Assembly: GCF_900218015.1 (NCBI RefSeq)
Contig: NZ_UFQQ01000025.1
Span: 1 to 64,000 of the forward strand
DNA: 64,000 nt
Origin: Rhodopseudomonas pentothenatexigens
Lineage (GTDB): Bacteria > Pseudomonadota > Alphaproteobacteria > Rhizobiales > Xanthobacteraceae
Direction of reading: 5' to 3'
Part shown: positions 24,499 through 29,966 of the stretch, piece after piece
How the letters are laid out: each line of letters begins with the position of its first letter
Position numbering within the stretch: the stretch's first letter is position 1
Made by a program: the position numbers and the translations under genes
Notes under the pieces: generated by a model
Seen by the model: the letters and a program-made list of their open reading frames with translations, nothing else
Databases searched by the model: none
What the model was told of the DNA's origin: nothing

Positions 24499-24725
24499 TC
24501 TGCCGCCGCAGCGCGTCGTCACACCGCCGCGTCGCCGTCGTACTTGTCCCCGTCGTTATTGGCGAACTTGAACGAACGTTCAGCTTCGCGCCGCGCGGTG
24601 TGATGGATCGGCAACGCTCCGCGACGCGGGCGAATAATTCCCGGGTTAAGACAAAAAAAATCTTGCGGCCCGGCATCGAAACACCTATTTGCACCCTTGC
24701 CCAATTTCGCACGTGCCTGTGGTCG

Positions 24726-24950
24726 TGTGTCAGTCGGTAGGTATCCGGACAAGAGGCCGGACAGCCGCCAAGGGATGAAGAGCCGAGGGTCCTCCGTTCA
24801 AGCGGATGGCCAGCATCTCTCTCAAGAGATGCCGTTGAAGGTGGCTTCTTCTCTTGCAACCGTGACTGACAGCCGGAGGCGAACCGGCGCACCTCGTTCT
24901 CAACGGGGGACGCGACTTAAAGCAACGACGGAGCGGGCTTTTTTGGTCTC
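24726..24950 (+). ncRNA. Structured 5' leader of the ornithine decarboxylase gene, probable speF motif
   Basis: A closed RNA domain is visible. TGTCAGTC (24728-24735) pairs with GACTGACA (24864-24871), enclosing about 130 bases. Inside, GCATCTCT (24813-24820) pairs with AGAGATGC (24825-24832) on a CTCA loop. Just outside, GCCGG/CCGGC forms a small hairpin at 24872-24888. A T6 run at 24939-24944 follows a GC-rich stretch and could end an attenuator. Alphaproteobacterial ornithine decarboxylase genes are known to carry a conserved speF leader; position and structure fit it. The exact consensus could not be checked here. Confidence 0.65.
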
Positions 24951-25160
24951 TGCCGGCTTTCCAACAGCCGGCGCGAATACCGAAGAGGCTTGTCCTTCAT
25001 TGCCAGGTGAGCGGGCGGGATCCCTCCCAACCAATCCACGGCAGCACTGTTGATCCGAGCTCATCGCTCGTTGCGCCTCCATCGCGCGACGGGCGCTTGA
25101 AGCATCGGATCGGCGTCATCGTCTGGAATGCGCCCGTCGCTGGGCGCGTGGGAGAGTGCC
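24951..25160 (+). other. Distal part of the ornithine decarboxylase leader
   Basis: This section has one more hairpin, GCCGGCT/AGCCGGC at 24953-24973, without a T tract. The remainder to 25160 is AT-poor sequence with no gene. A GAGAG sequence at 25152-25156 lies just before the ATG at 25161 and may be the ribosome-binding site. Confidence 0.5.
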
Positions 25161-26303
25161 ATGACCGAACGTATCCGCGAATTCCTGCGCGACCGCCGTG
25201 CCAAGGGTCTGGACGTCGAGCCGTGCCTGGTCGTCGACCTCGAAGTGGTGCGCGACAACTTCATGCATTTCGCCAAGGCGCTGCCGGACAGCCGTGTGTT
25301 CTATGCGATCAAGGCCAACCCGGCGCCGGAAGTGCTGTCGCTGCTGGCCTCGCTCGGCTCGTGCTTCGACTGCGCCTCGGTGCAGGAGATCCAGATGGCG
25401 CTGGCCGCGGGAGCGACCCCGGACCGCATCTCGTTCGGCAACACCATCAAGAAGGAGCGCGACATCGCGCGCGCCTACGAGCTCGGCATCCGTCTGTTCT
25501 CGGTGGACTGCACCGCAGAGGTGGAGAAGATCGCTCGCGTCGCGCCCGGCTCGAAGGTGTTCTGCCGCATCCTGTACGATTGCGCCGGCGCCGAGTGGCC
25601 GCTGTCGCGCAAGTTCGGCTGCGATCCGGAGATGGCGGTGGACGTGCTCGACGTCGCCAAGCGTCTCGGCCTGGAAGCCTACGGCATCTCGTTCCATGTC
25701 GGCTCCCAGCAGCGCAAGGTGAAGGCGTGGGACCGCGCGCTGGCGATGGCCGCGCAGGTGTTCCGCGACTGCGCCGAGCGCGGCATCAACCTGTCGATGG
25801 TCAACATGGGCGGCGGCTTTCCGACCAAGTACCTGAAGGAAGTGCCGGCCGTGGTGCAGTACGGCCGCTCGATCTTCCGGGCGCTGCGCAAGCACTTCGG
25901 CAACCAGATCCCGGAGACCATCATCGAGCCGGGCCGCGGTATGGTCGGCAACGCCGGCGTGATCGAGACCGAAGTCGTGCTGATCTCGAAGAAGAGCGAC
26001 GAGGACGAGTTGCGCTGGGTGTATCTCGACATCGGCAAGTTCGGCGGTCTCGCCGAAACGATGGACGAGTCGATCCGCTACGCGATCAAGTCGCGCCACG
26101 ACGGCGCCGAGATGACGCCCTGCGTGCTCGCCGGCCCGACCTGCGATTCGGCCGACGTGCTGTACGAGAAGCTGCCGTATCCGCTGCCGGTGACGCTGGA
26201 GATCGGCGACAAGCTGCTGATCGAAGGCACCGGCGCCTACACGTCGACCTACTCGGCGGTGGCGTTCAACGGCTTCCCGCCGCTGGCGACCTACCACATC
26301 TGA
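25161..26303 (+). CDS. Ornithine decarboxylase (PLP, group IV/fold III)
   Basis: The 380-residue enzyme is a fold-type III PLP decarboxylase of the eukaryotic-ODC-like group. The PLP lysine is K51 in VFYAIKANPAPEV. Other conserved parts are SFGNTIKKERDI, the substrate-site segment ISFHVGSQQRK, the glycine-rich phosphate loop VNMGGGFPTKY, EPGRGMVGNAG, and GPTCDSADVLYEKLPYP with the catalytic cysteine. It makes putrescine from ornithine; some members also accept lysine. Homospermidine synthase at 28536 uses putrescine, so the region supports a homospermidine pathway. It is probably controlled by the structured leader upstream. The start ATG at 25161 gives a standard N-terminus. Confidence 0.95.
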   Translation: MTERIREFLRDRRAKGLDVEPCLVVDLEVVRDNFMHFAKALPDSRVFYAIKANPAPEVLSLLASLGSCFDCASVQEIQMALAAGATPDRISFGNTIKKERDIARAYELGIRLFSVDCTAEVEKIARVAPGSKVFCRILYDCAGAEWPLSRKFGCDPEMAVDVLDVAKRLGLEAYGISFHVGSQQRKVKAWDRALAMAAQVFRDCAERGINLSMVNMGGGFPTKYLKEVPAVVQYGRSIFRALRKHFGNQIPETIIEPGRGMVGNAGVIETEVVLISKKSDEDELRWVYLDIGKFGGLAETMDESIRYAIKSRHDGAEMTPCVLAGPTCDSADVLYEKLPYPLPVTLEIGDKLLIEGTGAYTSTYSAVAFNGFPPLATYHI

Positions 26304-27755: not shown

Positions 27756-28020
27756 GCCTATCCAATTGTACGATAATCGGCTTCCGGTTGACTTTCGGGC
27801 CGGGAGCCCTACGTTCCGACGATCATGACGATCTTGCCCCGCAACCGCTTGATGCTGCGCGCCGGTCGCCTTCACGCAGGAAGGTGACCCGGACGCGCGC
27901 GTGCGCCGTCCGGGCTGAACGATCTCGTCGACTGCTCCCCCTTCTGTTTTCAAACTGCTGCTTATCCAGAGAATGCCGGTGCGCATGACGCGTCCGGCGT
28001 GACAAGGACCCGTGAAACAC

Positions 28021-28425
28021 ATGATCCAATCAATTCCCGCCCAGCGCCCACCGATTACCATCCGCAATTGCGACGCCGAACGGCTCGGCCAGCTCGCCGA
28101 AGCCGCCGCGCAGCGCTACCCGACCACGGCCGAGTTTCTCGCCGGGGAGGTCGCGCGCGCCCATGTCGCGCCCGACAGCGATCCCCTGCCCGGGATCGTC
28201 TGCATGGAATCCACCCTCACCTTCCGGGACGATACCACCGGCAAGGAAAAGCACGTGACTCTGGTGTACCCGACCGAGGCCGACGTCGACGCTGGTCGTA
28301 TTTCGGTATTGACCCCGATCGGAGCCGCGCTTATCGGCCTCTCCGTCGGGCAGTCGATCAGCTTCGAGACCCCGTCGGGCGAGCGGCGCTCCCTGACGGT
28401 ACTCAGCGTGTCCGCGCCAGACTGA
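28021..28425 (+). CDS. rnk: Nucleoside diphosphate kinase regulator-like protein (Rnk / GreA-GreB C-terminal domain)
   Basis: The 134-residue protein has a short N-terminal helical part (RNCDAERLGQLAEAAAQRYP) and a GreA/GreB C-terminal FKBP-like domain at about residues 55-134 (MESTLTFRDD, KHVTLVYPTEADVDAGRISV, TPIGAALIGLSVGQSISFETPSGE). That is the Rnk arrangement: it binds RNA polymerase but lacks the coiled-coil finger of GreA. A GTG at 28012 is an alternative start with AAGGA three bases away. It precedes homospermidine synthase by 110 bases. I infer a general regulator, not a polyamine-specific one. Confidence 0.85.
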   Translation: MIQSIPAQRPPITIRNCDAERLGQLAEAAAQRYPTTAEFLAGEVARAHVAPDSDPLPGIVCMESTLTFRDDTTGKEKHVTLVYPTEADVDAGRISVLTPIGAALIGLSVGQSISFETPSGERRSLTVLSVSAPD

Positions 28426-28535: not shown

Positions 28536-29966
28536 ATGTCGTCCACTTCGAAGATCCACGCCAAGATCACCGGCCCCATCGTGATGATCGGCTTCGGCTC
28601 GATCGGCAAAGGCACGCTGCCCCTGATCGAGCGGCACTTCGAGTACGACAAGCAGCGGTTCGTGATCATCGACCCGCACGCCGACGGCGAACTCGCCGAG
28701 AAGCACGGCGTCCGCTTCATCAAGCAGGCGGTGACCAAGGACAACTACCGCGAGCTGCTGGTGCCGCTGCTGACCGAAGGCGGCGGCCAGGGCTTCTGCG
28801 TCAATTTGTCGGTCGACACCTCGTCGGTCGACATCATGACGATGTGCCGCGAGATCGGTTCTCTGTACATCGACACCGTGGTCGAGCCGTGGCTCGGGTT
28901 CTATTTCGACAAGAACGCCGGCCCGGAGAAGCGCTCCAACTACGCGCTGCGCGAGACCCTGCTGGCCGCCAAGGCCAAGAACCCCGGCGGCACCACTGCG
29001 GTGTCGACCTGCGGCGCCAACCCCGGCATGGTGTCGTGGTTCGTCAAGCAGGCGCTGCTCGACATCGCCCGCGACACCGGCCTCGAATTCAACGAGCCGA
29101 AGAGCCGCGAGGGCTGGGGCCAACTCGCGCAGAAGCTCGGCGTCAAGGGCGTCCACATCGCCGAGCGCGATACCCAGCGCGCCAAGACCCCGAAGCCGAT
29201 GAACGTGTTCGTCAACACCTGGTCGGTCGAAGGCTTCGTGTCCGAGGGCCTGCAGCCGGCCGAACTCGGCTGGGGTACGCACGAGAAGTGGATTCCGGAC
29301 AACGGCCGCAAGCACACCGAAGGCTGTCAGGCTGCGATCTACCTGCTGCAGCCGGGCGCCAACACCCGCGTCCGCACCTGGTGCCCGACGCCGGGCGCGC
29401 AATACGGCTTCCTCGTCACCCACAACGAATCGATCTCGATCGCCGACTACTTCACGGTGCGCGACGGCCAGAACGTCGTCTACCGGCCGACCTGCCATTA
29501 CGCCTATCACCCGGCGAACGACGCGGTGCTGTCGCTGCACGAGATGTTCGGCGCCGAAGGCAAGATGCAGCCGAAGTGGCACATCCTCGATGAGAACGAG
29601 ATCGTCGACGGCATCGACGAACTCGGCGTGCTGGTCTACGGCCACGCCAAGAACGCCTACTGGTACGGTTCGCAGCTCTCGATCGAAGAGACCCGCGAGG
29701 TCTGCCCGTATCAGAACGCCACCGGCATGCAGGTGTCGTCGGCGGTGCTCGCCGGCATGGTGTGGGCGCTGGAGAATCCGGAAGCCGGCATCGTCGAAGC
29801 CGACGAGATGGACTTCCGCCGCTGCCTCGAAGTGCAGAAGCCGTATCTCGGCCCGGTGAAGGGTTACTACACCGACTGGACCCCGCTCACCGACCGCCCC
29901 GGCCTGTTCCCGGAGGACATCGACACCTCCGACCCGTGGCAGTTCAAGAACGTGCTGGTGCGCTGA
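28536..29966 (+). CDS. hss: Homospermidine synthase
   Basis: The 476-residue protein is of the saccharopine-dehydrogenase-like family and matches bacterial homospermidine synthase. The NAD-binding motif is GFGSIGKGTLPLIERHFEYD. Conserved segments include CVNLSVDTSSVDIMTMCREI, TVVEPWLGFYFD, GANPGMVSWFVKQALLD, EKWIPDNGRKHTEGCQAAIY, and YWYGSQLSIEETREVCPYQNATGMQV. It condenses two putrescines (or putrescine and spermidine) to sym-homospermidine, a polyamine typical of many alphaproteobacteria such as Rhodopseudomonas and Blastochloris. With the upstream ornithine decarboxylase the window encodes the pathway from ornithine. Its end is followed by a repeat cluster carrying an IS. Confidence 0.96.
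   Translation: MSSTSKIHAKITGPIVMIGFGSIGKGTLPLIERHFEYDKQRFVIIDPHADGELAEKHGVRFIKQAVTKDNYRELLVPLLTEGGGQGFCVNLSVDTSSVDIMTMCREIGSLYIDTVVEPWLGFYFDKNAGPEKRSNYALRETLLAAKAKNPGGTTAVSTCGANPGMVSWFVKQALLDIARDTGLEFNEPKSREGWGQLAQKLGVKGVHIAERDTQRAKTPKPMNVFVNTWSVEGFVSEGLQPAELGWGTHEKWIPDNGRKHTEGCQAAIYLLQPGANTRVRTWCPTPGAQYGFLVTHNESISIADYFTVRDGQNVVYRPTCHYAYHPANDAVLSLHEMFGAEGKMQPKWHILDENEIVDGIDELGVLVYGHAKNAYWYGSQLSIEETREVCPYQNATGMQVSSAVLAGMVWALENPEAGIVEADEMDFRRCLEVQKPYLGPVKGYYTDWTPLTDRPGLFPEDIDTSDPWQFKNVLVR

Follow-up and report, generated by a model that had tools for sequence, protein, structure and literature searches.

The stretch of DNA analysed here (the window) comprises 64,000 nucleotides of a Rhodopseudomonas pentothenatexigens contig, in which a structured leader precedes an ornithine decarboxylase (ODC) gene. 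The protein encoded by this gene matches Pfam PF02784 and PF00278 and has its best PDB matches among lysine/ornithine decarboxylases, in agreement with the original prediction that the leader lies upstream of an ornithine decarboxylase-type gene; its NCBIfam matches (lysA and others) all fell below the cut-offs, and its substrate is predicted from homology. The genes associated with speF have been described as COG0019-type ODCs (PMC1273637), and the window ODC is COG0019-like. The nearest named relative by ODC identity is Rhodopseudomonas rhenobacensis (93%). A homospermidine synthase gene lies at 28536-29966, 2.2 kb past the ODC (PDB matches to 4plp and others), placing a later step of the same pathway nearby, and a nucleoside diphosphate kinase regulator/GreA-like protein (NF004396) is encoded between the two at 28012-28425. 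The features of the leader and its gene are as follows.

24662-24690, + strand: putative promoter, CTTG-N-CACCTATTT, with transcription start expected near 24697-24699
24699-24944, + strand: ar45 (RF02347) sRNA/terminator domain, 246 nt (cmscan; fold z -2.64)
24699-24717, + strand: strand a, the 5' strand of the ar45 core (GCCCAAUUUCGCACGUGCC), from the fold of 24699-24944
24721-24728, + strand: 5' arm of the P4 helix, which bears the variable insert; 3' arm at 24910-24917
24728-24735, + strand: 5' arm of an outer helix within the insert; 3' arm at 24864-24871; two-sided changes across families
24813-24832, + strand: hairpin GCATCTCT-CTCA-AGAGATGC, found in 77 of 179 leaders with one-sided variation only
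24872-24888, + strand: hairpin GCCGG/CCGGC, from sequence and fold
24922-24933, + strand: strand b, the 3' strand of the ar45 core (GCAACGACGGAG), common to both folds
24935-24944, + strand: GGGC and U6, presumed 3' end of the ar45 sRNA, inside the long stem in the other fold
24951-25108, + strand: speF leader element RF00518 (cmscan, 99.4 bits)
24953-24971, + strand: speF hairpin CCGGCUUUCCAACAGCCGG, from sequence, with two-sided changes in relatives
24979-25003, + strand: strand b', ACCGAAGAGGCUUGUCCUUCAUUGC, the complement of 24922-24947
25072-25090, + strand: CUCCA-loop hairpin close to the ODC start, its loop complementary to a GGAG ribosome-binding site
25161-26303, + strand: ornithine decarboxylase, with ATG 25161 picked by homology and an upstream GGGAG

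Two Rfam families were identified by cmscan on the same strand, ar45 (RF02347) at 24699-24942 with 55.1 bits over a gathering score of 40, and speF (RF00518) at 24951-25108 with 99.4 bits over a gathering score of 37, the latter spanning the full model (1-153) and sitting in front of the ODC-type gene as a speF member should. The genome of the window contains one speF and one ar45 motif. The original prediction had assigned 24726-24950 to the speF motif and proposed a covariance-model search; a match does exist, but it begins one base past this segment, and the segment itself is ar45 minus its 5' strand. The assignment holds for the 'extended speF element' of 2005, which covered both the ar45 and the speF stretches (PMC1273637), and fails under the current Rfam boundaries. 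The window leader thus belongs to two known RNA families and is a well-formed, ordinary representative of each. That it adds an example of speF is correct, though the addition is modest since 205 of the 397 genomes sampled from the order have an Rfam speF match with an E value of at most 0.001, and in 173 the score exceeds the cut-off; among 385 sampled genomes of the class there were 15 such matches, large searches using stricter filters.

The structural elements read from the letters are all present: the outer 8-base helix (TGTCAGTC at 24728-24735 with GACTGACA at 24864-24871, the two arms starting 136 bases apart), the perfect hairpin (GCATCTCT at 24813-24820 with AGAGATGC at 24825-24832), the further hairpin (GCCGG at 24872-24876 with CCGGC at 24884-24888) and the T6 run at 24939-24944. 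Compensatory changes in two helices had been proposed as a check, and one of the two shows them. The outer helix has two-sided changes across families; searched with a regular expression, 112 of 179 leaders (counted as loci) yielded a candidate and 67 did not, 17 of the 24 distinct arm pairs match at 7 or 8 of 8 positions, and over all 24 pairs 154 of 192 cells are paired versus 17-48% when the arms are slid. Most of the other 7 arm pairs look like false matches of the regular expression. The GCATCTCT hairpin, found in 77 of 179 loci by a search that fixed its 5' arm, varies on one side only, its 3' arm showing U.G wobbles, a longer loop and a few broken pairs; judged by sequence it is conserved in the window's family, with covariation not proving its pairing. 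Another insert hairpin (24744-24761), with ACAAGAGGCC, is kept in several families whose inserts otherwise differ, and this motif resembles GAAGAGGC of speF. A 7-bp match in the window between GGACAAG of the insert hairpin and CUUGUCC of speF was set aside as coincidental; the hairpin motif also occurs where speF differs.

When folded with its natural ends (24698-24944), the RNA reached -104.4 kcal/mol with a z of -2.64 (1 of 200 shuffles as good). The segment 24726-24950, which lacks the core's 5' strand, gave a z of only -1.36 (20 of 200 shuffles as good). Two features were absent from the original prediction: a closing helix of the whole RNA, 24699-24702 with 24935-24938, and a competing pairing of the ar45 3' strand with speF.

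The leader was compared across 184 loci (L001-L184), consisting of the window's own leader, 80 leaders obtained by ODC similarity and 103 by speF matches, with up to 900 nt upstream of the ODC taken per locus. Some of these loci represent one genome fetched twice (e.g. L116/L183, L120/L181, L124/L182 and L085/L126); distinct rows were used for the P4 and core counts, the shuffles of 38 combinations, the ODC tree, the fold exchange and the 56-row count, while 167/170 (b:b'), 77/179 and 112/179 count loci. The ar45 element lies upstream of the ODC in 181 of the 184 leaders, 179 by core motifs and 2 by cmscan ar45 matches (L165 and L169, where the exact 5' motif is missing), the other three being cut contigs. 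Of 60 leaders chosen from the speF matches and scanned with Rfam, 56 had an ar45 match upstream of speF in the same orientation, and 55 of these matches exceeded the gathering score. The gap to speF was 8 nt in 46, 7 in 6, 9 in 3 and 6 in 1, which is too close for a second promoter. The Rfam ar45 model misses four leaders of the window's family (L125, L126, L129 and L184), in which both core strands are present 248-260 nt apart. A whole-genome search with the ar45 family missed the window's own copy, so a motif pattern was used instead; it matched 156 of 397 genomes of the order, at most one match each in the table, and in the 109 genomes for which both places were given, speF follows the ar45 5' motif in the same orientation, 81-301 nt further on. 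One match with a mismatch, in a genome not listed with speF (G556), is probably due to chance. Spacing between the core strands ranges from 24 nt (L153) to 275 nt (L014), with 211 in the window. Among 72 near relatives the insert is in large part invariant. Three leaders (L153, L154 and L155) possess a minimal ar45 of 57 nt in which the insert and P4 are gone and both core strands, the U-tract and speF are kept; given that the insert is nearly absent there, little room is left for a promoter inside ar45. For experiments, these three leaders would make good short constructs.

In the fold of 24699-24944, strand a is predicted to pair at 24699-24702/24935-24938, 24705-24709/24929-24933 and 24712-24716/24922-24927. 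This ar45 fold (fold A) brings GCCC...CACGUGCC near the start together with GCAACGACGGNNNGGGC directly before the U-tract. The GCCC of strand a is kept in 178 of 179 leaders, and the helices found only in the ar45 fold (P1-P3) show no covariation, both strands being nearly invariant. The P4 helix, which is compatible with both folds, has 93% of its cells paired over 7 pairs and 79 distinct rows, with 95 two-sided cells and 30-47% pairing when slid. The Rfam register of the core could not be separated from an alternative one, whose single varying pair gave 24 two-sided cells versus 29 in the slid control. A local terminator scan of the window made no call at the ar45 U-tract. Support for the ar45 fold therefore comes from invariance, folding energy and the sRNA sizes in the literature, and not from compensatory change. 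A proposed a:a' pairing (UCGCAC/GUGCGG) is frequent and nearly invariant among leaders; it is imperfect in the window, where the predicted long RNA pairs strand a elsewhere, and was rejected there and kept as a lead.

The second pairing connects the two families. The 3' strand of the ar45 hairpin together with the U-tract (24922-24947) is complementary to speF 24979-25003, with 23 pairs predicted in the window, and in this fold B GCAACGACGGNN, GGGC, the U-tract and GGU pair with ACNGAAGAGGC-NN-NNC-UUC-UUGC. For RNA cut at U6 the predicted fold joins strand b to strand a; for the longer RNA it joins strand b to 24993-25003. Covarying positions of b and b' read GGU/ACC, GUA/UAC, GGA/UCC, GAA/UUU (one G.U) and GUAA/UUAC. 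With a fixed spacer of 4 nt, 167 of 170 leaders (loci) pair at all three positions G26-X27-X28, and the sequences of the remaining 3, as well as 9 with shorter spacers, pair at a spacer of 2-3 nt. Among 38 distinct b/b' combinations, 29 pair at the fixed spacer versus a shuffled mean of 12.5 (highest 22 in 5000), and the b:b' duplex energy is -9.2 versus -6.8 for shuffled combinations (sd 0.29; 0 of 2000 as low). On a quickly built tree of 117 ODC rows, 7 changes of the ar45 dinucleotide are needed, each compensated in speF on the same branch; of 2 additional speF changes, one is a wobble (L081) and the other a register artefact (L096/L105).

Column counts gave the same picture. Over 56 rows 98.1% of cells were paired versus 35.7-55.0% when slid, with 88 two-sided cells versus 30.1 shuffled; these 56 rows were taken from an alignment of 92, leaving out the GGA/UCC class and the rows with other spacers, which favours a clean count. 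The GGA/UCC class, to which the window belongs, is out of register in the MAFFT alignment of 92 segments. Without any structure supplied, RNAalifold recovered the same long stem on both row sets, with 6 two-sided pairs on 92 rows (all in the upper hairpin) and 8 on 56. The stem formed by the U-tract has 258 of 286 cells paired over distinct rows versus 44-61% when slid, and all 6 pairs of the speF hairpin at 24953-24971 show two-sided changes in 56 relatives, the window's own class excluded. The regular expressions for strands b and b' require AGC[AG]ACGA and TTGCC, which makes selection by these demanded bases part of the reason why GCAA/UUGC is invariant; 179 of 184 loci passed, and cut contigs account for 3 of the 5 that did not. 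The b:b' pairing covaries between the ar45 and speF strands.

Because both folds use strand b, they exclude each other, and the predicted fold changed with the length of the RNA. When the RNA was cut at the U-tract, the ar45 closing helix (3 or more pairs) formed in 170 of 171 distinct RNAs, and when it was extended past speF the minimum-energy structure was fold B in 164, fold A in 2 and another in 5 of the 171. Constrained folding placed B below A in 170 of 171, by a median of -4.7 kcal/mol. Under a stricter rule applied to 106 leaders, the cut RNA adopted fold A in 87 and other folds in 19, whereas strand b was drawn downstream in 100 of the 106 extended RNAs of real sequence, versus 46 of 424 with dinucleotide-shuffled downstream sequence. 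These are single-strand energy predictions at 37 C for RNA free of proteins and ligands. Taken together, ar45 and speF appear to be alternative folds of a single leader, each excluding the other.

Upstream of the leader, when 159 distinct sequences are aligned on GCCC, 154 have TTG followed by A, C or T at -43 to -32, and a TA-rich block is conserved near -13. A sigma-70 scan gave no match, and the CTTG...CACCTATTT block, which we take to resemble heat-shock sigma (RpoH) promoters, is a putative promoter by its sequence. Of 106 distinct leaders, 88 have a counterpart of the hairpin close to the ODC start, with at least 3 stem pairs flanking YYTCCA and with varied stem sequences, versus 41 of 1060 mononucleotide shuffles. 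Several loop sizes were tried for each hairpin and the best one was counted, with the shuffles searched in the same way; a role of this CUCCA(U)-loop hairpin in translational control is possible.

We consider it fairly probable that the whole is one composite, two-fold ODC leader, filed as two Rfam entries, which gives either a terminated sRNA or a read-through mRNA. Transcription would begin near 24698, and the nascent RNA would first adopt the ar45 fold, in which a (24699-24716) pairs with b (24922-24938) across the structured insert, just before U6. RNA ending at U6, through a stop or through cleavage, would be the ar45 small RNA and leave the ODC off. In continued RNA, b' (24979-25003) would displace a from b, the U-tract would enter the 23-bp stem, and the resulting speF fold would belong to the ODC mRNA, so that the ratio of the two products sets ODC expression. 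The identity of the two elements, their adjacency, the b:b' covariation and the sharing of strand b by the two folds were computed here; that a small RNA exists and that speF lies within a longer transcript is carried over from literature on relatives, and we infer termination at U6 in R. pentothenatexigens, regulation of the ratio and its trigger, which may be a polyamine, a protein, or heat acting by way of the RpoH-like promoter. Two exclusive folds, one closing directly before a U-tract, are found here by prediction and covariation, as an attenuator would have them, but an attenuator's competing strand is made before the U-tract, and b' (24979-25003) follows U6 (24939-24944). Since polymerase is then already past or stopped, the speF stem is not a classical antiterminator; fold B may rather serve to secure RNA that has been read through, to release the 5' strand, or to influence translation jointly with the CUCCA hairpin.

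Other arrangements of the same parts can be conceived. The long speF stem might alone matter, the complementarity of the 5' strand serving as a weak constitutive terminator or a site of RNA processing, without regulation between the folds; the stem is the lower constrained fold in 170 of 171 RNAs and carries the covariation that the 5' strand lacks. However, GCCC (178/179) and CACGTGCC near the start are nearly invariant, take no part in the speF stem and are kept even in the insert-less L153-L155, and we regard this arrangement as unlikely. We find it less likely still that ar45 is an independent, Hfq-bound, trans-acting sRNA gene beside the ODC, with speF a separate leader under its own promoter. 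In Bartonella, ar45 was reported to be expressed independently of speF, in a paper that also cites Hfq co-immunoprecipitation in S. meliloti (PMC7717549); Rfam keeps two families, and the invariance of much of the insert within the 72 near relatives would suit an sRNA gene. Against it stand the gap of 6-9 nt in the 56 measured leaders, the constant adjacency in the 109 genomes compared and the covariation between the ar45 and speF strands, though ar45 may have a trans role on top of its cis role.

The speF of enterobacteria has a leader peptide, speFL. Attenuation of this type, with a ribosome on a short ORF picking the fold, has a precedent in Salmonella, where ODC is under leader elements and alternative mRNA conformations (PMC6386406), and among 72 close leaders, 49 retain the stop of a GTG frame at 24713-24778. 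In relatives as invariant as these, however, conservation of a frame carries little weight; any other frame retains both its start and its stop in at most 5 of the 72, the sole start shared by more than 35 of 106 divergent leaders is a TTG from the U-tract (79/106), and the minimal ar45 of L153 is devoid of ATG. With this single GTG frame as the candidate in near relatives, a conserved leader peptide was rejected, and we hold the peptide-driven arrangement to be very improbable. A coding role for a 118-aa frame at 24697-25053 was likewise discarded, as insert lengths vary between leaders without keeping phase.

The composite leader can be set beside published systems. It resembles the speF element (RF00518) in its place before a COG0019-type ODC and in its full-length model match, and the long stem was probably seen already in 2005; a competing pairing of the same strand, or a speF terminator, does not appear in the speF section of that paper (PMC1273637). 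The Rfam speF starts after strand b and so omits the 5' half of this stem. A literature search, run on names other than the Greek-letter ones, found no paper on ar45 and speF as competing folds. With ar45 (RF02347; S. meliloti smrC45/SmelC706, Bartonella Bbar45) the window shares the core sequences, the GCCC/GGGC closing helix and a 3' end at a U-tract; it differs by its 246 nt versus 148, owing to a larger insert, and in being read here as the terminated part of an ODC leader. The S. meliloti locus was detected as candidate sRNA smrC45 (PMC2573895), SmelC706 of S. meliloti is reported as 148 nt (PMC2873474, PMC7143759) and listed under RpoH1/2 (PMC7143759), and the Bartonella study detected ar45 separately from speF directly downstream, with a speF transcript of >700 nt, called the function of ar45 unclear and asked for further experiments on both elements (PMC7717549). 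Separate small ar45 transcripts ending at the U-tract are published for S. meliloti and Bartonella. In Mesorhizobium huakuii a 313-nt speF sRNA candidate was described (PMC5596092). The enterobacterial speF leader (PMC6386406) also controls ODC via alternative leader folds, unlike the window leader in that no conserved leader peptide was found in the latter.

Transcription-terminating riboswitches adopt mutually exclusive folds around a U-tract, and the window leader likewise has predicted exclusive folds around its own. It differs from these, and from the spermidine riboswitch of PMC10853860, in that its second strand follows the U-tract, and speF is listed with no known ligand in PMC3766115 and in a 2024 review (PMC11477304), in keeping with the original prediction that its ligand is poorly defined. 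The six compounds tried in 2005 on an A. tumefaciens RNA spanning -400 to +3 were negative, and homospermidine is absent from the compounds named as tested (PMC1273637). By the calculations on relatives, so long an RNA would sit in the other fold, and that screen could therefore have overlooked a ligand that binds the ar45 fold. We put forward as doubtful the proposal that the ar45 fold is the sensing and terminating half of the switch, with its near-invariant internal loops as candidate binding pocket; the signal might then be homospermidine, whose synthase gene lies 2.2 kb downstream, or a protein, and ar45 RNA on its own would be predicted to bind it and to terminate more.

What is added here is evidence that ar45 and speF together make up a single composite leader that is probably bistable. 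Since 2005 speF has counted as an orphan among cis-regulatory RNAs, as it still did in the 2024 review (PMC11477304). If the two are folds of one leader, both literatures would concern a single regulator of putrescine synthesis in alphaproteobacteria, the ar45 sRNA would be explained as the terminated product of an ODC leader, and the negative ligand screen of 2005 would have a concrete possible cause in a long construct favouring the other fold. The stalled question of the speF ligand would then become testable with one shortened RNA.
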